Shown one piece after another: positions 1,655 to 59,847 of a stretch of DNA of 64,000 bases. Every line of letters begins with the position of its first letter. Positions within the stretch are counted from its first letter, which is position 1. Source of the DNA: Hydrogenobacter sp. T-8 (lineage in GTDB: Bacteria > Aquificota > Aquificia > Aquificales > Aquificaceae); NCBI RefSeq assembly GCF_011006175.1, contig NZ_CP048795.1:248001-312000 (forward strand), read 5' to 3'. Both the position numbers and the translations under genes were made by a program. The notes beneath the pieces were generated by a model. It had not been told where the DNA came from. It made no database searches and saw only the letters and a list, made by a program, of their open reading frames with translations.

Positions 1655-2202
1655 GGCTCTATACCCTCAAAAACCTCTTCAAGCTCAAGCTCCAAAGAAA
1701 GCACCTCAGACCTCACCACACCCTTACCCTTTGCCTTGCTTATAAGTTTAAAACCCTCTTCTGTATTGAGATATACCTCAAAAGTTCTCCTAAGAGGGTC
1801 CACTATCCAATACTCTCTCACTCCAGACCTCTCATAAACATCCTTTTTTTGCGTCAAGTCATAGTATGCAGTGGAAGGTGAAAGTATCTCCACCACCACA
1901 TCAGGCGGTCCATAAACGCCTTTTCTGGTTATCTTTGCCTTTGAGCCTTTGAGAATTACCACTATGTCAGGTTGGTAGACGTTCTCTTCATCAATATACA
2001 CGTCAAGGGGTGCGTATAGCACTCTTCCAATAGCCTTTTGCTTGAGGAAACTATAAAGCCTGTGGCTTATGTTTATAGAAGTCTGCTGGTGCTCAAACCC
2101 CGGTGCTGGGCTCATAACAAGCTCTCCTTCAATGAGTTGGTATGGGCTACCTTCTGGCAATACCTCATAATCTGTTACGGTCTTCTTCTCAAGGATCTTC
2201 AT
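1651..2202 (-). CDS. Uma2-family (DUF820) putative nuclease, second copy
   Basis: 183 aa, same architecture as its neighbours: LIEGELVMSPAPG, YQPDIVVIL, PPDVVVEILSPST, KKDVYERSG, GVREYWIVDP. From about residue 80 to the stop it is almost identical, in protein and DNA, to the upstream copy at 2199-2750. Residues about 38-62 (QQTSINISHRLYSFL and on) are unrelated in detail. That pattern points to gene conversion of the 3' half with a preserved variable segment. Both ends overlap neighbours by 4 bp ATGA junctions. The catalytic Asp, Glu and Lys appear intact. Function unknown beyond the nuclease-like fold. Confidence 0.85.
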   Translation of the reverse strand: MKILEKKTVTDYEVLPEGSPYQLIEGELVMSPAPGFEHQQTSINISHRLYSFLKQKAIGRVLYAPLDVYIDEENVYQPDIVVILKGSKAKITRKGVYGPPDVVVEILSPSTAYYDLTQKKDVYERSGVREYWIVDPLRRTFEVYLNTEEGFKLISKAKGKGVVRSEVLSLELELEEVFEGIEP

Positions 2203-2750
2203 GGCTCTATACCCTCAAAAACCTCTTCAAGCTCAAGCTCCAAAGAAAGCACCTCAGACCTCACCACACCCTTACCCTTTGCCTTGCTTATGAGTTTAAA
2301 ACCCTCCTCTGTATTGAGATATACCTCAAAGGTTCTCCTAAGAGGGTCTACAAGCCAATACTCTCTCACTCCAGACCTCTCATAAACATCCTTCTTCTGC
2401 GTCAAGTCATAATAAGCGGTAGAGGGTGAGAGTATTTCCACCACCACATCAGGCGGTCCATAAACGCCTTTTCTGGTTATCTTTGCCTTTGAACCCCTGA
2501 GAATCACCATTATATCTGGCTGGTAGACGTTCTCTTCGTCAAGATATAGGTCTACTGGGGCGTAAATGACCCTTCCTCTGCCAGCACGATAAACAGCATC
2601 CGCAAGCCTTAGTACAAGGTTAAAGGAGCTCCCAAAATGTTCAAACCCTGGTGCTGGGCTCATAATAAGCTCTCCCTCAACAAGCTGGTAGGGACTACCT
2701 TCTGGCAATGCTTCATAGTCCGCTAAAGTCTTCTTCTCAAGGGTCTTCAT
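2199..2750 (-). CDS. Uma2-family (DUF820) putative nuclease, first copy
   Basis: 183 aa, the first of three tandem Uma2 genes. Its ATG overlaps the soeA stop (ATGA). Residues 1-37 and 80-183 are near-identical to one or both of the other copies, while residues about 38-62 (FGSSFNLVLRLADAV and on) are copy-specific. The QPD Asp, VVEIL Glu and KKDVYE Lys of the PD-(D/E)xK core are present. Nothing suggests decay, so all three copies are probably expressed with the sulfite dehydrogenase. No specific target or partner can be read from the sequence. Confidence 0.85.
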   Translation of the reverse strand: MKTLEKKTLADYEALPEGSPYQLVEGELIMSPAPGFEHFGSSFNLVLRLADAVYRAGRGRVIYAPVDLYLDEENVYQPDIMVILRGSKAKITRKGVYGPPDVVVEILSPSTAYYDLTQKKDVYERSGVREYWLVDPLRRTFEVYLNTEEGFKLISKAKGKGVVRSEVLSLELELEEVFEGIEP

Positions 2751-47526: not shown

Positions 47527-49440
47527 ATGGAAGGGCTGGCGGTTCTACTTTCACCTCTTATAGCCTTTTTGATAATAGGCCTCTTTGGCTCAAGAATGGG
47601 CGATATGGCAAGTGCCTTGCTCTGCATCCTGGGCGGTGCTTTCTCCTTCCTCTTCTCCCTGTGGGCTACCTTCAAAGCCCTCAACGAGCCCTTTACTGTC
47701 AAGCTATACAACTTTTTGCCTCTGGGTGATTATACCCTCTCTCTGGGTCTTTACTTTGACCCTCTGTCTTCTGTTACTGCCTCTGTGGTCACTCTTGTGG
47801 CTACTCTTATTTTTATCTACTCTGTGGGCTATATGTCTAATCTCTTCGGTCAGTGGACTTTTAAGTTCTATGCCTATCTCTCTCTTTTCCTCTTTGCCAT
47901 GCTCCTTATTGTGCTTTCGGACAACCTTCTTGGGCTTTTCTTTGGCTGGGAAGGTGTGGGTCTTGCCTCTTATCTGCTTATTGGATACTTCCACACTCAG
48001 AAAAAGGCTGCTAATGCCTCCCTTGAGGCTTTTACTCTAAATCGTATCGGAGACTGGTTTTTCCTCTTTGGTATCATTGCCACCTTTTACCTTTTTGGTT
48101 CTTTGTCTATTCTTGACATTTTTGGCAAGGTCTCTGAGGTGGACAAGGCACTTCTTGGTCTTGCTTGCCTTTTGCTTTTTGGTGGTGCGGTAGGGAAGTC
48201 TGGTCAACTGCCTCTGCATACTTGGCTTCCTAATGCTATGGCTGGTCCTACTCCTGTTTCTGCCCTTTTGCACGCTGCTACCATGGTGGCAGCGGGTGTT
48301 TATATGGTTGCAAGGCTCTATCCCATGTTTGAAAACGCACCACAGAGTTTGAAGGTTGTTGCCCTTGTGGGAGGTATAACCGCCCTCTTTGCAGGACTTT
48401 CCGCCACCTCTCACACAGACATAAAGAAGATTATCGCCTTTTCCACCATGAGCCAGCTGGGACTTATGTTTTTGGCTTTGGGTCTTGGGGACAGGATGTC
48501 CGCCATGTTTCACCTTACCACTCATGCCTTTTTCAAAGCTCTACTTTTCCTCTCTGCAGGTTCAATAATCCACGCCTTTCACCATCATGTGCATGACATA
48601 TACGAGACTGGAGGTTTGAAAAGATACATGCCCATAACCTATGGAAGTTTTCTCGTGGGAGCATTGGCATTGGCGGGAATATTTCCACTATCAGGTTTTT
48701 GGAGCAAGGACCTTATAGTGGCAACTGCGTATGAAGTGAGCTTTTTCTGGGGTGTGCTTGTGTCTGTGGTGAGTTTTTTGACTGCCTATTACATATTCAG
48801 GGAGGGCTTTGTAATGTTTCATGGCAAGGAACACTTCAGGTACGAGCATGAAAAGGAGCCACATGAGAGTCCTGGCGTGATGGCGATACCCATGCTTATG
48901 TTGGCTGTGATGGCGGTGTCCGCAGGGTTTTTTGAGGGGTGGTATGGGGGTGTGATGGGAGTGAAGAAAGAACTTCATTTGAATATTGCCCTACTCTCTA
49001 TGGGTGTAGCATTGGCGGGCATAGGTGTGGCATATCTTGTGTATGTGAGAGGACTGATAGACCCACAGAAGGCATATGAGGCTCTCAAGCCTTTGCATAC
49101 TACCTTCAAAGAGCAGTTCTTTACTGAGAGGCTTTACCACAGGGGTATAGCAAGGGGGTATATGGGTCTCTCAAGGGCTCTCTTTTTGGCAGGCGACAGG
49201 GTGCTAATAGATGGCTTTATAAACCTTCTTAACTTCCTCTACCTTAGAGTGGTCAAGTTCCTCTGGATGAAGCTGGACATAATGCTTGTAGACCTTTTTG
49301 TCAACGGCGTGGCAAAGGTTTCCTACTGGACGGGCAAAAGGGTAAGGAACATACAGACGGGACTTCTTAACAACTATGTGAGCTTTCTGCTACTGGGTGT
49401 GGTCTTTATACTGGGCGTAATTCTATACAGCATGAGGTGA
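47527..49440 (+). CDS. nuoL: NADH-quinone oxidoreductase subunit L (copy 1)
   Basis: 637 aa, antiporter-like, with 14 core TMs and the long lateral helix at the C-terminus. Key stretches are GWEGVGLASYLLIGYF, GKSGQLPLHTWLPNAMAGPTPVSALLHAATMVAAG and HTDIKKIIAFSTMSQLG. Residues 1-540 are almost the same as copy 2; the last 95 differ completely (RGIARGYMGLSRALF and on). Protons are pumped through its Glu/Lys/His chain. Gap to nuoM 4 bp. Confidence 0.94.
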   Translation: MEGLAVLLSPLIAFLIIGLFGSRMGDMASALLCILGGAFSFLFSLWATFKALNEPFTVKLYNFLPLGDYTLSLGLYFDPLSSVTASVVTLVATLIFIYSVGYMSNLFGQWTFKFYAYLSLFLFAMLLIVLSDNLLGLFFGWEGVGLASYLLIGYFHTQKKAANASLEAFTLNRIGDWFFLFGIIATFYLFGSLSILDIFGKVSEVDKALLGLACLLLFGGAVGKSGQLPLHTWLPNAMAGPTPVSALLHAATMVAAGVYMVARLYPMFENAPQSLKVVALVGGITALFAGLSATSHTDIKKIIAFSTMSQLGLMFLALGLGDRMSAMFHLTTHAFFKALLFLSAGSIIHAFHHHVHDIYETGGLKRYMPITYGSFLVGALALAGIFPLSGFWSKDLIVATAYEVSFFWGVLVSVVSFLTAYYIFREGFVMFHGKEHFRYEHEKEPHESPGVMAIPMLMLAVMAVSAGFFEGWYGGVMGVKKELHLNIALLSMGVALAGIGVAYLVYVRGLIDPQKAYEALKPLHTTFKEQFFTERLYHRGIARGYMGLSRALFLAGDRVLIDGFINLLNFLYLRVVKFLWMKLDIMLVDLFVNGVAKVSYWTGKRVRNIQTGLLNNYVSFLLLGVVFILGVILYSMR

Positions 49441-52776: not shown

Positions 52777-52787
52777 AGGAGTTGGCT

Positions 52788-54503
52788 ATGCCTTGGGCAA
52801 GAGGAGAAGAGTTCACCCAGCTAAAGGAGAGGTTTGAAGGGCTGGAAATTGAGGAAAAGCCCACTCTTACCGCCCTTCATGTGCCAAAGGCAAGGCTTAT
52901 AGAGCTTCTTAAGGCTCTGAAGGAAGAAAGGGGCTACAAGCTCTTCATTGACCACTCGGTGGTGGACTTTCCTGACAAAAAACCTCGCTTTCAAGCCTTC
53001 TACATCCTCTACAACGTGGATGAGAAAAAGAGGGTAGTGGTAAAAACATGGACGGACGGAGAGCTACCTTCTATAGAAAGGCTTTGGTTTGCGGGCAAGT
53101 GGGCTGAGCGCGAGTGCTACGATATGTTTGGCATAAGGTATGAGGGGCACGAAAACTTAGTGCGTGCCTTTATGTGGGAAACCTACCAGCACTATCCTCT
53201 TAGAAAGGACTTTCCTCTTGAGGGCTATGCCACAGAATACTTGCCTTCCTTGAACGAGGTCCTATGGGGTGAAAACCTCAACGGTCTTATGAACTACGAT
53301 AAGATGCACACGCCCGTGCCAACTCTAGAAGACCTTGAGATAACCGAAAAGAGAAGGCTTCAGAAAAAGGCTCAGATAGTGCTAAACTGGGGACCACTAC
53401 ATCCGGGAACGCACGGAACTATGTGGTTTCTCTTTGACCTTGAGGGGGAAAGGGTCTATCAGTGCGATGTGATACTGGGTCAGCTCCATAGGGGCGTGGA
53501 AAAGTTAGCAGAAAACGAGATGTATAACCAGTTTCTGGTCTACACAGACCGTATGGACTACCTTTCCGCCCTATGCTCCAATCAGGCTTGGGTTGTGGCA
53601 GTGGAGAGACTTCTCGGCATAGAAGACCTTGTTCCAGAAAAGGCAAAGTATATCCGCACTATGATGTCAGAGCTTCAGAGGATAAACTCTCACCTTTTGT
53701 GGCTTGGCACATACGCTCTTGACCTTGGAGCTCTAACCATATTCCTGTATGCCTTTAAGGAGAGAGAAAAACTTATGGACATTATAGAGGGTATAACTGG
53801 TGCAAGGCTCACCATCTCCTACACGAGGATAGGTGGTGTGCGTATGGACTTGCCAGAGGGTGCTCTGGAGGTAATAAAAGCCTTTATAAAGAGGTTTCCA
53901 AGGGAGCTAAAGGAGTGGGAGACCATACTCAGTAGGAACAGGATATGGCTAAGAAGAAACGTGGGAGTGGGAGTTATAAGCAAGGAGGATGTTTACTTCT
54001 ATGGGCTCACAGGTCCAGTAGCCAGAGGCTCTGGCGTGCCTTACGATATAAGAAAGTTTGAACCCTACGATGCCTATCCATGGGTGGAGTTTGACATTCC
54101 CGTGGGAGAAAGTGGAGATGTGTATGATAGGTATCTGGTCAGGCTTGAGGAGATGAGACAGAGCCTTAGGATAATAGAGCAGTGTGTGGCGGTCCTTGAA
54201 AAACTCAAAAATGCACCCTTCTTTGCGGAATCTCCAGACCCTAAAAAGCTCAAGCTACCCCTTGACGGCATAGGTCTAAAGGTTCCAGAGGGAGAGATAT
54301 ACTCCTCAGGAGAAAACCCGAGAGGAGAGCTGGGCTTTTACATATACTCCACTGGTGGTGTCAAGCCCTACAGGGTAAAGATAAGACCAGGCTCCATGTA
54401 TAACCTTTGCGTGTATCCCAAGCTTATGAAAGACCGCGTCATAGCGGATGCGGTTACCATCTTGGCAAGCATAGACCCAGTGGTAGGAGAGATAGACCGA
54501 TGA
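52788..54503 (+). CDS. nuoCD: NADH-quinone oxidoreductase fused subunit CD
   Basis: 571 aa from ATG 52788 (AAAGGAG 6 bp upstream; a TTG six bases earlier is too close). Residues 1-165 are NuoC (ERECYDMFGIRYEGHENL and YPLRKDFPLEGY). Residues 190-571 are NuoD, with the quinone-site LNWGPLHPGTHG, GQLHRGVEKLAE and TDRMDYLSALCSNQAW. The fusion places quinone reduction on one chain. The stop overlaps the Uma2 start (ATGA). Confidence 0.94.
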   Translation: MPWARGEEFTQLKERFEGLEIEEKPTLTALHVPKARLIELLKALKEERGYKLFIDHSVVDFPDKKPRFQAFYILYNVDEKKRVVVKTWTDGELPSIERLWFAGKWAERECYDMFGIRYEGHENLVRAFMWETYQHYPLRKDFPLEGYATEYLPSLNEVLWGENLNGLMNYDKMHTPVPTLEDLEITEKRRLQKKAQIVLNWGPLHPGTHGTMWFLFDLEGERVYQCDVILGQLHRGVEKLAENEMYNQFLVYTDRMDYLSALCSNQAWVVAVERLLGIEDLVPEKAKYIRTMMSELQRINSHLLWLGTYALDLGALTIFLYAFKEREKLMDIIEGITGARLTISYTRIGGVRMDLPEGALEVIKAFIKRFPRELKEWETILSRNRIWLRRNVGVGVISKEDVYFYGLTGPVARGSGVPYDIRKFEPYDAYPWVEFDIPVGESGDVYDRYLVRLEEMRQSLRIIEQCVAVLEKLKNAPFFAESPDPKKLKLPLDGIGLKVPEGEIYSSGENPRGELGFYIYSTGGVKPYRVKIRPGSMYNLCVYPKLMKDRVIADAVTILASIDPVVGEIDR

Positions 54504-55006
54504 AGCTAAGGCATCTGCCACATTACACTTATGAGGACTATACAAAATGGCAAGGAGACTGGGAGCTTATAGAGGGCGTTCCCTATGCTATGGCTTCGCC
54601 CAAATTTCCCCATCAGCGTCTTATGTTTGTGCTGGCAAGGCTTTTGGAAGACATGCTTGAAGAATGCGACTGTTTTGTGGTGGGAAAGCTTGACTGGGTC
54701 ATATCGGAGGATACGGTTGTGAGACCAGACCTTGTAGTTTTGTGTGAAGAACCTCAGGACTACATAAGAAAAAGACCGGAGGTGGTCTTTGAGATAGTTT
54801 CAGAGAACTCAAGGGAGATGGATGAGTTTGTAAAGTTTAAGCTATACGAACAGCAAGCAGTGCCTTATTATGTGCTTTTGTATCCAGAAGGCAAAAGCTG
54901 GAAAGCCTACAGGTGGTCTCCACAGGGTTTTGTGCCTATGGAGAGGCTCTCTTTTAGTGTAAAAGGCTGTGCCTTTGAAATAGATACAGAAAGGCTCTGG
55001 AGGTAG
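54500..55006 (+). CDS. Uma2-family putative nuclease inside the nuo operon, copy 1
   Basis: 168 aa from the ATG overlapping the nuoCD stop. Features: KLRHLPHYTYEDYTKWQGDWELIEGVPY, then VRPDLVVLCEEP with the Asp, VVFEIVSENS with the Glu and a KFKLYEQQAVPYYVLLYPE segment with the Lys. It is a different Uma2 subgroup from the three copies in the soe operon. Only 2 bp separate it from nuoH, so it must be co-translated with complex I. Role unknown. Confidence 0.85.
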   Translation: MKLRHLPHYTYEDYTKWQGDWELIEGVPYAMASPKFPHQRLMFVLARLLEDMLEECDCFVVGKLDWVISEDTVVRPDLVVLCEEPQDYIRKRPEVVFEIVSENSREMDEFVKFKLYEQQAVPYYVLLYPEGKSWKAYRWSPQGFVPMERLSFSVKGCAFEIDTERLWR

Positions 55007-55008
55007 AC

Positions 55009-56058
55009 ATGGAGAGCGTAGTCGCTTGGCTCATAATAACCCTAATAAAGATATTGGTAATATTGGGTATAGTTCTTGGTGTGGGTGCATATCTTACCTT
55101 GGTGGAGAGAAAGGTGGCGGCGCACATACAGAGAAGACCGGGTCCCATGGTGGTGGGTTGGCACGGGCTTTTGCAACCCCTTGCGGACGGTCTTAAGCTC
55201 CTCACAAAGGAAGACCTCTTTCCAAGATACGGAAACAAGTTTCTGTATAACCTTGCCCTTGTGATGGCTTTAGTGCCTGCGGTTTTGGTCTTTGCGGTAG
55301 TTCCCTTTGGTCCCGAGTTTGAGCTTTTTGGATACAAGATAAAGCCTATTCTCACCGATGTAAACATTGGTCTACTGCTTGTCTTTGCCCTTGGCTCTAT
55401 GGCTGTCTTTGCCATAGCCTTGGCGGGGTGGGCTTCCAACTCCAAGTATGCGCTTATAGGCTCTATGAGAAAGGCAGGCATAGTGGTCTCCTACGAGGTG
55501 GTTATAACCTTTGCGGTCATGGGTCCCATCATACTGGCTGGAACCCTTTCCACTTACGACATAGTCCAAAAACAGATAGAGCAAAACCTCTGGTATATGT
55601 GGCTTCAGCCTATGGCTTTTGTGGTTTATATGTTTGCCATGCTTGCGGAAACTGGAAGAGTGCCCTTTGACATACAAGAGGCAGAGGCAGAGCTGGTGAC
55701 AGGCTTTACCGTGGAATACGGTGGCATGAAGTTTGGTCTTTTCCCGCTGGTGGAGTGGTATATTGAGGTACTTTCCCTCTCCGCCATTGCGGTGGTGCTT
55801 TTCATGGGGGGCTGGTCGCCCATAAACATACCCTTCTTGGGCTTTGTTGACCCCCTCTTCTTCCTCGGACCCCTTTCCCCCTTTGTATGGTTCGTGTTAA
55901 AGGTCTCTGCTCTCTTTCTCTTTGTGCTGTGGCTTCACTGGACACTGCCAAGGTATAGGATTGACCAGATAACCGCAACCGCTTGGAAGGTGATGCTTCC
56001 CCTTACCTTTGTAAACCTGGTGCTCACCGCAGTTGTAGCACCCCTTATATGGAGGTAA
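55009..56058 (+). CDS. nuoH: NADH-quinone oxidoreductase subunit H
   Basis: 349 aa with eight TMs. The quinone-channel loops are clear: RPGPMVVGWHGLLQPLADGLKLLTKED and AETGRVPFDIQEAEAELVTGF with its Glu cluster. Single copy, set between two Uma2 genes. Confidence 0.95.
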   Translation: MESVVAWLIITLIKILVILGIVLGVGAYLTLVERKVAAHIQRRPGPMVVGWHGLLQPLADGLKLLTKEDLFPRYGNKFLYNLALVMALVPAVLVFAVVPFGPEFELFGYKIKPILTDVNIGLLLVFALGSMAVFAIALAGWASNSKYALIGSMRKAGIVVSYEVVITFAVMGPIILAGTLSTYDIVQKQIEQNLWYMWLQPMAFVVYMFAMLAETGRVPFDIQEAEAELVTGFTVEYGGMKFGLFPLVEWYIEVLSLSAIAVVLFMGGWSPINIPFLGFVDPLFFLGPLSPFVWFVLKVSALFLFVLWLHWTLPRYRIDQITATAWKVMLPLTFVNLVLTAVVAPLIWR

Positions 56059-56060
56059 GG

Positions 56061-56573
56061 ATGAAACTAAGACACCTGCCCCATTACACCTATGAGGACT
56101 ACGCAAGGTGGCAGGGAGACTGGGAGCTTATAGAAGGCATTCCCTACGCTATGGCTTCGCCCACAGGGATTCACCGTGTAGTGGTCTTTTGGTTGCAAAG
56201 GCTTTTGGCAAAAGAGCCTGAGAAAAACCCCTGCGATTGCGAAGTGGTATCAGAAGTAGACTGGGTAATCTCAGAGGATACGGTCCTAAGACCAGACGTG
56301 GCAATCCTGTGCGAGGAAGGGGAAGAATACATAAGAGAGACGCCCCTGCTTGTGGCAGAGGTGGTTTCAAAAAGCACCAAAAAACACTACGAAGGGCTAA
56401 AGTTTGAAAAATATGAGGAGGCAGGCGTGCCTTACCACCTGCTCCTCTATCCAGAAACCAAGAGTTGGAAGGTCTACAGAAACACACAAGAGGGCTTTGT
56501 AGCCATGGAAGGCTTAGAATTTCAGATAAAGGACTACAGGTTAGAGCTTGACCTAAAGAAGGTGTGGAGGTAA
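56061..56573 (+). CDS. Uma2-family putative nuclease inside the nuo operon, copy 2
   Basis: 170 aa. The first 32 residues are almost identical to the copy before nuoH (MKLRHLPHYTYEDYARWQG), after which the two diverge. Catalytic-type residues: LRPDVAILCEE, LVAEVVSKSTKK and EGLKFEKYEEAGVPYHLLLYPE. Starts 2 bp after nuoH (GGAGG ahead) and ends 3 bp before nuoI2. Intact, so kept under selection or newly arrived. Confidence 0.85.
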   Translation: MKLRHLPHYTYEDYARWQGDWELIEGIPYAMASPTGIHRVVVFWLQRLLAKEPEKNPCDCEVVSEVDWVISEDTVLRPDVAILCEEGEEYIRETPLLVAEVVSKSTKKHYEGLKFEKYEEAGVPYHLLLYPETKSWKVYRNTQEGFVAMEGLEFQIKDYRLELDLKKVWR

Positions 56574-56576
56574 AGC

Positions 56577-57200
56577 ATGGTAAAGAAGGTTTTTGAGAGA
56601 CCCTTGAGCTGGCTTGAACGCATTTTGTTCCTTGACTTTATAAGAGGGCTGTCCATAACTATAAGGCACGCTTTTAGGAGAACCATCACCACCCACTACC
56701 CCTATGAGAAGCTCACACCGCCCAAGCGCTTCAGAGGTTTCTTCGGACACAAGGTGGTGGACGGTAAGGAGCCCCAGCCCGCCTTTGATGAGTGGGTAGA
56801 GAGGTTCAAAATAAAAGTAGAGCCAGGCAAAAGCAGGTGTGTGGTCTGCATGCTCTGCAAAAGGGCTTGTCCTGTGCCACAGCTCTTTGAGATAGAAGGT
56901 GAGAAACTGCCCGACGGCAGGAGGAGGGTCTCTGTCTTTAACATGAATATGATGCTTTGCACCTTTTGCGGTTTTTGTGTGGATGCATGCCCTGTGGACT
57001 GCCTTTTCCAGAGCGATATACACGAGACCGCCAGTTATACAAGAAAGGATGCGGTGCTTGACCTTGAGGTGTTAGAGAGAATTGGCAGAGACTGGCAAAG
57101 GAGAAGAGAAGAAGAACCAGATAGAATATGGATAGATGACTACCAAAGACAAAGGCTTTGGTATGAAAACGACCTTAAACTTCCGGAGGTGAAAAGGTGA
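56577..57200 (+). CDS. nuoI: NADH-quinone oxidoreductase subunit I (copy 2)
   Basis: 207 aa paralogue of the first gene of the operon. Fe-S motifs CVVCMLCKRACPVP and CTFCGFCVDACPVDC. Shares the N-terminal FLDFIRGLSITIRHAFRR and the C-terminal REEEPDRIWIDDYQRQR. The GTGA junction couples it to nuoJ2. Confidence 0.93.
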   Translation: MVKKVFERPLSWLERILFLDFIRGLSITIRHAFRRTITTHYPYEKLTPPKRFRGFFGHKVVDGKEPQPAFDEWVERFKIKVEPGKSRCVVCMLCKRACPVPQLFEIEGEKLPDGRRRVSVFNMNMMLCTFCGFCVDACPVDCLFQSDIHETASYTRKDAVLDLEVLERIGRDWQRRREEEPDRIWIDDYQRQRLWYENDLKLPEVKR

Positions 57201-58020: not shown

Positions 58021-59847
58021 ATGGAGATACTGGTTCTACTTTCACCTCTTATAGCCTTTTTGATAATAGCCCTCTTTGGCTCAAGAATGGGCGATATGGC
58101 AAGTGCCTTGCTCTGCATCCTGGGCGGTGCTTTCTCCTTCCTCTTCTCCCTGTGGGCTACCTTCAAAGCCCTCAACGAGCCCTTTACTGTCAAGCTATAC
58201 AACTTTTTGCCTCTGGGTGATTATACCCTCTCTTTGGGTCTATACTTTGACCCACTGTCCTCTATAACCGCCTCTGTGGTTACCTTCGTAGCTACTCTTA
58301 TCTTCATATACTCTGTAGGCTATATGTCTGACCTCTTCGGTCAGTGGACTTTTAAGTTCTATGCCTATCTCTCTCTTTTCCTCTTTGCCATGCTCCTTAT
58401 TGTGCTTTCAGACAACCTTCTTGGTCTCTTCTTCGGTTGGGAAGGTGTGGGTCTTGCCTCTTATCTGCTTATTGGATACTTCCACACTCAGAAAAAGGCT
58501 GCTAATGCCTCCCTTGAGGCTTTTACTCTAAATCGTATCGGAGACTGGTTTTTCCTCTTTGGTATCATTGCCACATTCTACCTCTTTGGTTCTTTGTCTA
58601 TTCTTGACATTTTTGGCAAGGTCTCTGAGGTGGACAAGGCACTTCTTGGTCTTGCTTGCCTTTTGCTTTTTGGTGGTGCGGTAGGAAAGTCTGGTCAACT
58701 GCCTCTGCATACTTGGCTTCCTAATGCTATGGCTGGTCCTACTCCTGTTTCTGCCCTTTTGCACGCTGCTACCATGGTGGCAGCGGGTGTGTATATGGTG
58801 GCAAGGCTCTATCCTATGTTTGAGAACGCTCCTCAGAGTTTAAAGGTTGTTGCTCTCGTGGGAGGTCTAACAGCCCTCTTTGCAGGACTTTCTGCCACTT
58901 CTCACACGGACATAAAGAAGATAATAGCCTTTTCTACCATGAGCCAGCTGGGACTTATGTTTTTGGCACTTGGTCTTGGGGATAGGTTCTCTGCCATGTT
59001 TCACCTTACCACTCATGCCTTTTTCAAGGCATTGCTATTTCTTGCTGCTGGCTCTGTTATTCATGCCTTTCACCACCATGTGCATGACATATACGAAACA
59101 GGGGGTCTTAAAAGATACATGCCCATAACCTATGGTAGTTTTCTGGTGGGTGCTTTGGCTTTGGCGGGTGTGTTTCCCCTTTCTGGCTTTTGGAGCAAAG
59201 ACCTTATTGTGTCAACCGCTTATGAGGCGAGCTTTTTCTGGGGTGTGCTTGTGTCTGTGGTGAGTTTTTTGACTGCCTATTACATATTCAGGGAGGGCTT
59301 TGTAATGTTTCATGGCAAGGAACACTTCAGGCACGAGCATGAAAAGGAGCCACATGAGAGTCCTGGCGTGATGGCAATACCCATGCTTTTGTTAGCCCTA
59401 ATGGCGGTGGTAGCAGGGTTTTTTGAGGGCTGGTATGGGGGTGTGATGGGAGTGAAGAAAGAACTTCATTTGAATATTGCCCTACTCTCTATGGGTGTAG
59501 CATTGGCGGGCATAGGTGTGGCATATCTTGTGTATGTGAGAGGACTGATAGACCCACAGAAGGCATATGAGGCTCTTAAGCCTTTGCATACTACCTTCAA
59601 AGAGCAGTTCTTTACTGAGAGGCTTTACCATAGGGTGTTGGCTGGTGGATACCTCTTTTACTCTAAAATACTCTACATGACTTCAGAAAGACAGCTCATA
59701 GACGGGCTTGTGAACGTTACTTATCCAGCAGTGAAAGGTGCAGGCAGTGTCCTTAGACAGCTTCAAGGAGGCAAGCTAAACCTCTATGCCTTCTTTATAG
59801 CCCTTGGCTTTTCCTTGCTTCTTCTTATAACAATCCTATGGAGGTAA
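58021..59847 (+). CDS. nuoL: NADH-quinone oxidoreductase subunit L (copy 2)
   Basis: 608 aa. Same core signatures as copy 1 (GWEGVGLASYLLIG, HTWLPNAMAGPTPVSALLHAA). Several DNA blocks are identical or nearly so to copy 1, offset by 10491 bp: 58032-58231, 58331-58570, 58590-58788, 59236-59330 and 59446-59628. Patches between have many silent changes. After LYHR at about residue 538 the C-terminal helix region is unrelated and shorter. Gene conversion is the likely cause. Confidence 0.94.
   Translation: MEILVLLSPLIAFLIIALFGSRMGDMASALLCILGGAFSFLFSLWATFKALNEPFTVKLYNFLPLGDYTLSLGLYFDPLSSITASVVTFVATLIFIYSVGYMSDLFGQWTFKFYAYLSLFLFAMLLIVLSDNLLGLFFGWEGVGLASYLLIGYFHTQKKAANASLEAFTLNRIGDWFFLFGIIATFYLFGSLSILDIFGKVSEVDKALLGLACLLLFGGAVGKSGQLPLHTWLPNAMAGPTPVSALLHAATMVAAGVYMVARLYPMFENAPQSLKVVALVGGLTALFAGLSATSHTDIKKIIAFSTMSQLGLMFLALGLGDRFSAMFHLTTHAFFKALLFLAAGSVIHAFHHHVHDIYETGGLKRYMPITYGSFLVGALALAGVFPLSGFWSKDLIVSTAYEASFFWGVLVSVVSFLTAYYIFREGFVMFHGKEHFRHEHEKEPHESPGVMAIPMLLLALMAVVAGFFEGWYGGVMGVKKELHLNIALLSMGVALAGIGVAYLVYVRGLIDPQKAYEALKPLHTTFKEQFFTERLYHRVLAGGYLFYSKILYMTSERQLIDGLVNVTYPAVKGAGSVLRQLQGGKLNLYAFFIALGFSLLLLITILWR

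Follow-up and report, generated by a model that had tools for sequence, protein, structure and literature searches.

Uma2 nuclease-fold genes entangled with the complex I operon of Hydrogenobacter sp. T-8 at fixed, variably occupied junctions

The Uma2 proteins (DUF820, COG4636; PF05685), represented by the structures 1wdj, 3ot2, 6okh and 9y1l, are defined by a common fold and by a PD..E..K pattern with the lysine in the following helix, and their genes occur in tandem copies with a patchy distribution. They account for more than 2% of the genes of Gloeobacter, and the same study found their insertion to be "virtually random" and proposed a selfish spread of the family (PMC551604); a role as solo toxin has also been put forward (PMC2701414). 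In this study, we analyzed two such genes, here called Uma2-A and Uma2-B, which flank nuoH in a complex I (nuo) operon of Hydrogenobacter sp. T-8 (Aquificaceae). They lie in a 64-kb stretch of DNA (C1:248001-312000; hereafter, the window) of a 1.806-Mb genome in a single contig. The two genes have the family's residue pattern, fold, tandem copies and patchy distribution in common with the described members. In contrast to random insertion, the occupied junctions recur across the genus and partly across the family, and the sequences cluster by site. Two features go beyond what has been described for Uma2: a translational entanglement with the host operon and the switching of one helix as a block.

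Single Uma2 genes inside redox-enzyme operons have been reported before, namely, sll1222 (DUF820) in the hoxEFUYH operon of Synechocystis (PMC4963859) and aq_1194 in the pyruvate:ferredoxin oxidoreductase (PFOR) cluster of Aquifex (PMC10052474), in both cases without a comparison of filled and empty junctions. The free-standing homing endonuclease genes of T4-like phages (PMC2988022) are similar in that a lone nuclease gene sits at a junction between conserved flanking genes, with precise empty and filled alleles and degenerate remnants. The likeness to our case is one of sequence, however, and the variable helix of the Uma2 proteins does not track the site. In type I restriction systems, the specificity subunits exchange their target-recognition domains. 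The Uma2 proteins resemble these subunits in having a conserved frame with a block-exchanged variable segment, but here the segment is a helix of ~20 residues with a putative role in recognition, in a solitary nuclease that has no methylase.

Filled and empty junctions of the nuo operons

The order of genes is nuoCD, Uma2-A, nuoH, Uma2-B and nuoI, with spacings of -4, +2, +2 and +3 bp (Table 1), which agrees with an earlier note on this DNA that had placed Uma2 genes on both sides of nuoH at ATGA or 2-3-bp junctions. Insertion at stop/start junctions is precise, as that note had held, and close relatives differ in whether the very same junction is occupied. In the same genus (g1), the nuoD-nuoH junction of this operon (nuo1) is empty in G002, G004, G006 and G011, holds one copy in G001, G009 and G012, and holds two in G010, while nuo1 of G013 contains two plus two copies. 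The nuoH-nuoI junction is filled only in Hydrogenobacter sp. T-8 and in G013 (two copies). In the second nuo operon (nuo2), the nuoD-nuoH junction is filled in G000, G003, G004, G010, G012 and G013 of this genus and also in G021, G048, G060, G061 and G079. Between species, a single site thus exists in exactly delimited filled and empty alleles.

The empty junction reads mostly ..GACAG(A/G)^TAG GAGG..ATG in a family-wide survey (^ marks the boundary). In genera g6 and g9, the empty allele GACAGA^TAGGAGG..ATG of G018 and G054 has its filled counterpart, GACAGA^TGA..uma2..TGG-ATT^TAGGAGG..ATG, in G049, G059 and G061 and also in G021, G048 and G079, with ATT at the right boundary replaced by ACT or TCG in others. 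The g6/g9 insert falls between the last sense codon of nuoD and its stop, such that nuoD gains a new TGA, the ATG of Uma2 uses a host A, and the host TAG becomes the stop of Uma2. In genus g1, the end of Uma2 reads TGG AGG TAG/TAA/TGA, with ggagg within the last codons; a small deletion may have fused the Shine-Dalgarno sequence into the gene. The left boundary in nuo2 is the identical GACAGA^TGA, and ggagg precedes nuoH in most filled members.

The ggagg motif, suspected earlier of being a flanking repeat, is the Shine-Dalgarno sequence of the next gene, and empty sites carry it too. Similarly, ATGA is a start-stop overlap rather than a signature of Uma2, as a start at -4 is available at 9 of the 48 other co-directional junctions of the window versus 4 of the 7 Uma2 junctions. 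The operons are tightly packed, so that a viable insertion has to fall at a junction. No transposase gene was found among the neighbors of Uma2-A and Uma2-B, which are nuo genes, in line with the earlier note, and neither terminal inverted repeats nor target-site duplications were found around positions 54300-56750, the boundaries of the inserts being free of duplication. The sole long direct repeat at the nuo1 insertions is the similarity between the first 104 nucleotides (nt) of Uma2-A and Uma2-B, which are 88% identical, the remainder having diverged. At the protein level, the first 32 residues agree at 29 positions, and identity over the full length is 58%, as the described near-identity followed by divergence would have it. 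The synonymous divergence (dS) of 0.85 in the first 33 codons, against 1.95 or saturation beyond, indicates that the first block has been homogenized or is younger, besides being conserved as protein.

Filled and empty genomes are interleaved in the rpoB tree: G049 and G061 stand beside the empty G018 and G054, and G002, G006 and G011, as well as G004, lie inside the filled genus. Since the scar-free empty junctions carry the ancestral TAGGAGG, Uma2 must either have arrived repeatedly at the same base or have been lost through recombination with an empty allele, and both imply allele exchange at the nuoD-nuoH site.

Decay of the genes takes another form. In-frame remnants occur in G008 (94 amino acids [aa], residues 1-14 joined to ~89 onward), G007 (30 aa, recognized from its two ends only and nonsignificant by tblastn alone) and nuo2 of G005 (30 aa), and all three have their start codon within the ATGA overlap and extend to the Shine-Dalgarno sequence or start of nuoH. 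With a chance of ~1 in 27 for three in-frame remnants, in-frame decay is suggestive, and together with the kept ends it would fit a need for ribosome delivery to nuoH. A broken second copy is present in nuo2 of G003. By their sequences, Uma2 genes in place are translationally tied in, as their start overlaps the nuoD stop and, in this genus, their last codons carry the nuoH Shine-Dalgarno sequence; they decay by internal deletions that spare the coupled ends and multiply by tandem duplication at the same locus.

Could Uma2 serve the operon by tuning nuo mRNA or aiding complex I assembly? The co-directional, coupled placement between subunit genes (nuo1, nuo2, soe and por; sucC and sucD in G026) and the DUF820 gene of the cyanobacterial hox operon (PMC4963859) would be consistent with such a host function. 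However, Uma2 is not retained wherever a complex I operon is present: close relatives with intact operons have no Uma2 or only a 30-aa minigene. Other host genes are unrelated biosynthetic genes, and the protein encoded in the PFOR cluster of Aquifex did not turn up together with the enzyme (PMC10052474). Because relatives do without Uma2, we regard a role in complex I as very improbable.

Some junctions contain DNA of other kinds. Inserts of 0.7-1.0 kb that are not recognizably Uma2 lie between nuoCD and nuoH in two Hydrogenothermaceae, G036 and G038 (L044:2497-3186 and L045:2503-3499), and extra DNA of 162-429 bp without a Uma2 match lies between nuoH and nuoI in G009 (L026:2551-2712), G001 (L028:2551-2896) and G061 (L151:2551-2979), the G001 and G009 stretches having a short 3' end in common. 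Searches for Uma2 remnants gave no convincing match in the nuoH-nuoI gap of G001, G009 and G061, the soe gap of G006 and G010 or the nuo2 gap of G036 and G038. In G016, nuoH is in two overlapping frames (L040:1480-2528), a frameshift or assembly error.

A nuclease fold with a block-switched helix

Both proteins score above the PF05685 cut-off of 27 bits (Table 1), and D77, E98 and K112 are invariant in an alignment of seven nuo1 Uma2 homologues. The predicted fold of Uma2-A is PD-(D/E)XK-like and includes the D..E..K residues; its best Foldseek matches, 6okh, 9y1l, 3ot2 and 1wdj, are all DUF820 structures. The model, built on an alignment of seven sequences, has a pLDDT of 79, with residues 1-33 poorly predicted. 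Among Uma2 copies, dN/dS is 0.07-0.21, which signifies purifying selection. Uma2-A and Uma2-B are thus small proteins with a PD-(D/E)XK nuclease fold from a site-bound, operon-entangled gene family, and, judging by what is known of the family, they may be active nucleases.

One segment departs from this conservation. Tandem copies are 90-100% identical on both sides of codons ~38-58 and 30-50% identical over these codons. Among 36 non-independent pairs with a flank identity of at least 0.88, core identity is 0.40-0.60 in 17 and at least 0.75 in 19, with none between 0.60 and 0.75. The weakest 22-codon window, out of 146 possible starts, begins at codons 37-42 in 34 of 42 same-locus pairs. The block corresponds to a predicted helix (residues 36-56, helix 1) right after a conserved His/Asn-Gln and ahead of the PD strand. 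We observed the switch at soe, por, serA, argG, purH, nuo1 and nuo2 and also between species at single-copy sites (flank/core identity of 0.83/0.49 at hemB and of 0.87/0.52 for nuo1 of G001 versus G009). The G013 pair upstream of nuoH is ~97% identical outside the block; one of its blocks matches that of G000 (0.96), and the other finds 0.57 at best. Within an array of two to five genes, hardly any copies carry the same helix. The helix 1 block behaves as a unit that is kept different among neighboring copies, and the Uma2 copies are under purifying selection except for this helix, which is replaced as a block. Import of a block and gene conversion of the flanks surrounding old, dissimilar blocks would leave the same picture. 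In other phyla the switch is weak or partial (0.99/0.73 in one Campylobacterota pair and ~0.79/~0.52 in several others), and it may accordingly be strongest in the Aquificaceae.

That near-identical copies differ by a swap of the whole helix suggests that helix 1 decides what the nuclease recognizes. Helix 1 as a reader of the insertion site was rejected, as different helices are found at the same site (nuo1 in G001 and G009; hemB in G000 and G013). We found no clear case of loci drawing on a fixed, recycled set of helices, and most switched helices had no close match in the 117 genes compared.

The all-or-none switching in tandem arrays and between species at single-copy sites, the near absence of like helices within arrays and the purifying selection outside helix 1 are what one would expect of a defense repertoire, that is, of nucleases constitutively coexpressed from strong housekeeping operons against foreign nucleic acid, with helix 1 as a changing recognition element comparable to restriction specificity subunits. 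On the other hand, there is no partner methyltransferase or antitoxin among the Uma2 neighbors, the genes lie outside any recognizable defense island and have been lost in many relatives, and the Aquifex protein was barely detected (PMC10052474). We consider this rival serious but unlikely.

Sites across the genome and the family

The window contains five Uma2 genes in two respiratory operons, two at nuo and three between soeA and soeB, as had been counted before, and this had suggested a preference for such operons. The genome, however, has 17 Uma2 genes, which by their neighboring genes lie at ten or eleven places (Table 1). Besides soe, por and the two nuo operons, the hosts are serA, purH, hemB, argG, moeA and a hisN-like gene, and most of the sites are thus outside respiratory operons. 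The soe and moe names follow from the order of the genes and from similarity; for the soeA-like protein, the NCBIfam models with the best scores, which fall short of their cut-offs, describe molybdopterin oxidoreductases.

Occupied junctions common to the genus are nuoD-nuoH of both operons, soeA-soeB, porDelta-porA, serA, purH, hemB, argG and hisN-like-uspA, and several of them recur across the Aquificaceae. The junctions that hold Uma2 in G013, G010, G012, G003, G005, G006, G007, G009 and G021 are largely the same, whereas the number of copies varies, up to five genes at soeA-soeB of G013. Further genera also have an occupied por site, and so does Aquifex, where the occupant is aq_1194 (PMC10052474). 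In a tree of 118 Uma2 proteins, the members cluster by site and not by genome: nuo2 forms one clade (support 97/90), nuo1 upstream and downstream genes form another (98/76), and soe, serA and por each form one group. Such trees of a ~170-residue protein have shallow support, and many of the relatives are metagenome-assembled genomes. Because Uma2-A and Uma2-B fall in one site clade, they are local duplicates. Despite their equivalent junction, the Uma2 genes at nuo1 and nuo2 fall in deeply separate subfamilies, and NuoH of the two paralogous operons is ~65% identical; two independent arrivals at nuoD-nuoH would be the simplest reading, and replacement of Uma2 after operon duplication is possible. 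In a scan of 84,980 species, all nuo-adjacent genes among the best 80 relatives were from Aquificaceae, at nuoD-nuoH, and the Campylobacterota, Hydrogenothermaceae, Pseudomonadota and Bacteroidota relatives were at other sites; synteny of nuoCD-uma2-nuoH in distant phyla, which by the earlier note would have spoken against its proposal, was thus not found among them.

Orthologous sites and clustering by locus mark the genes as residents of long standing whose duplication is mostly local. On these grounds we rejected a fresh random insertion, and the roaming element with a preferred target envisaged by the earlier note is not supported either. The same findings do fit a purely vertical history with one insertion per site in an ancestor of the Aquificaceae, followed only by duplication and loss with no present mobility, as do the site-specific clades across genera and a divergence of Uma2 and rpoB between g6 and g9 that is compatible with vertical descent. 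Such a history would need many losses, each bringing back the ancestral TAGGAGG exactly, in lineages that branch among filled ones (G018 and G054; G002, G006 and G011), whereas the decay actually observed leaves scars. We take this rival seriously and judge it rather improbable.

Table 1. Features of the window, with positions counted from its first nucleotide, and Uma2 sites of the genome
Feature	Position	Strand	Remarks
nuoCD	52782..54503	+	PF00329, PF00346; stop TGA overlaps Uma2-A start (ATGA 54500-54503)
Uma2-A, 168 aa, putative PD-(D/E)XK nuclease	54500..55006	+	PF05685, 70.8 bits
Uma2-A codons 38-58, block-switched segment	54611..54673	+	coincides with predicted helix 36-56
ggagg in Uma2-A last codons (Trp-Arg-stop)	54999..55003	+	Shine-Dalgarno of nuoH; conserved in filled g1 relatives
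nuoH	55009..56058	+	PF00146, 366.7 bits
ggagg in nuoH last codons	56051..56055	+	Shine-Dalgarno of Uma2-B (of nuoI in relatives lacking Uma2-B)
Uma2-B, 170 aa	56061..56573	+	PF05685, 76.6 bits; same locus clade as Uma2-A
Uma2-B codons 38-58, block-switched segment	56172..56234 (approximate limits)	+	from pairwise comparisons
ggagg in Uma2-B last codons	56566..56570	+	Shine-Dalgarno of nuoI
nuoI	56577..57200	+	profile match
Site soeA-soeB	1109-1654, 1651-2202, 2199-2750	-	three tandem genes, within the window; names from gene order and resemblance
Site por cluster (porDelta-porA)			three genes
Sites nuo operon 1			nuoD-nuoH (one gene), nuoH-nuoI (one gene)
Site nuo operon 2			nuoD-nuoH (one gene)
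Site downstream of serA			two genes
Site purH-moaD			one gene
Site hemB-orf109			one gene
Site upstream of argG			two genes
Site hisN-like gene-uspA			one gene
Site upstream of moeA-like gene			one gene

Three further observations concern these loci and their surroundings. In G026 (Hydrogenothermaceae; L146:413-3035), a Uma2 gene lies between sucC and sucD, the subunit genes of one enzyme. A 383-bp noncoding stretch after a soe Uma2 gene is identical in G006 and G010 (L056:2020-2402 and L116:1497-1879) although their nuo genes differ clearly, which suggests recent transfer of the segment. Finally, two nuoL genes of the window (47527-49440 and 58021-59847, both +) have DNA that is 82-99% identical over ~520 codons and unrelated last ~70 codons, which amounts to a long conversion tract between duplicated nuoLMN sets flanking the nuo operon.

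Possible semi-selfish residents of an essential operon

Our preferred reading, a tentative one that we rate a little short of an even chance, is that Uma2-A and Uma2-B are operon-entangled, semi-selfish or semi-domesticated nuclease genes at fixed sites, with a block-exchanged specificity helix, and not part of complex I. It builds on the anatomy of the locus, the polymorphism between species, the site-bound clades, the in-frame decay, the purifying selection and the block switching that the sequences show. The protein would be an active nuclease, and empty alleles would be invaded by homing-like cut-and-repair copying from filled strains by way of the conserved nuoD and nuoH flanks. Helix 1 would set the recognition of a substrate, a dimer partner or an inhibitor, and recombination would exchange it, with selection favoring new variants. 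The gene would be a lodger in an operon whose disruption the cell could not tolerate.

Several points weigh against this proposal. We know of no nuclease assay for these Uma2 proteins. Since the site does not determine the helix 1 block, simple homing is weakened. A comparison aimed at co-conversion of the flanks gave a marginal shift in third-position divergence, near minus far (-0.033 for filled-filled and +0.014 for filled-empty comparisons, with a standard deviation of ~0.05 and non-independent pairs), and the nuo1 Uma2 clade, whose rooting is weak, would also allow vertical descent, given many losses.

A broader idea, which we hold as conceivable though somewhat doubtful, is that the Uma2 proteins make up a nuclease system built of modules. 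Helix 1 of the PD-(D/E)XK core would be its swappable specificity cassette, block-replaced by recombination while the rest stays near constant, and the genes would persist by insertion at stop codons and takeover of downstream start signals.

Uma2/DUF820 is a large family without established function, and fixed sites with exact empty alleles provide a defined candidate substrate for cleavage. The all-or-none switch of helix 1 names residues that may set specificity. The way in which Uma2 is entangled in translation suggests how a gene that lacks a transposase can stay in an essential operon, and why in-frame, leader-like minigenes remain when it decays.

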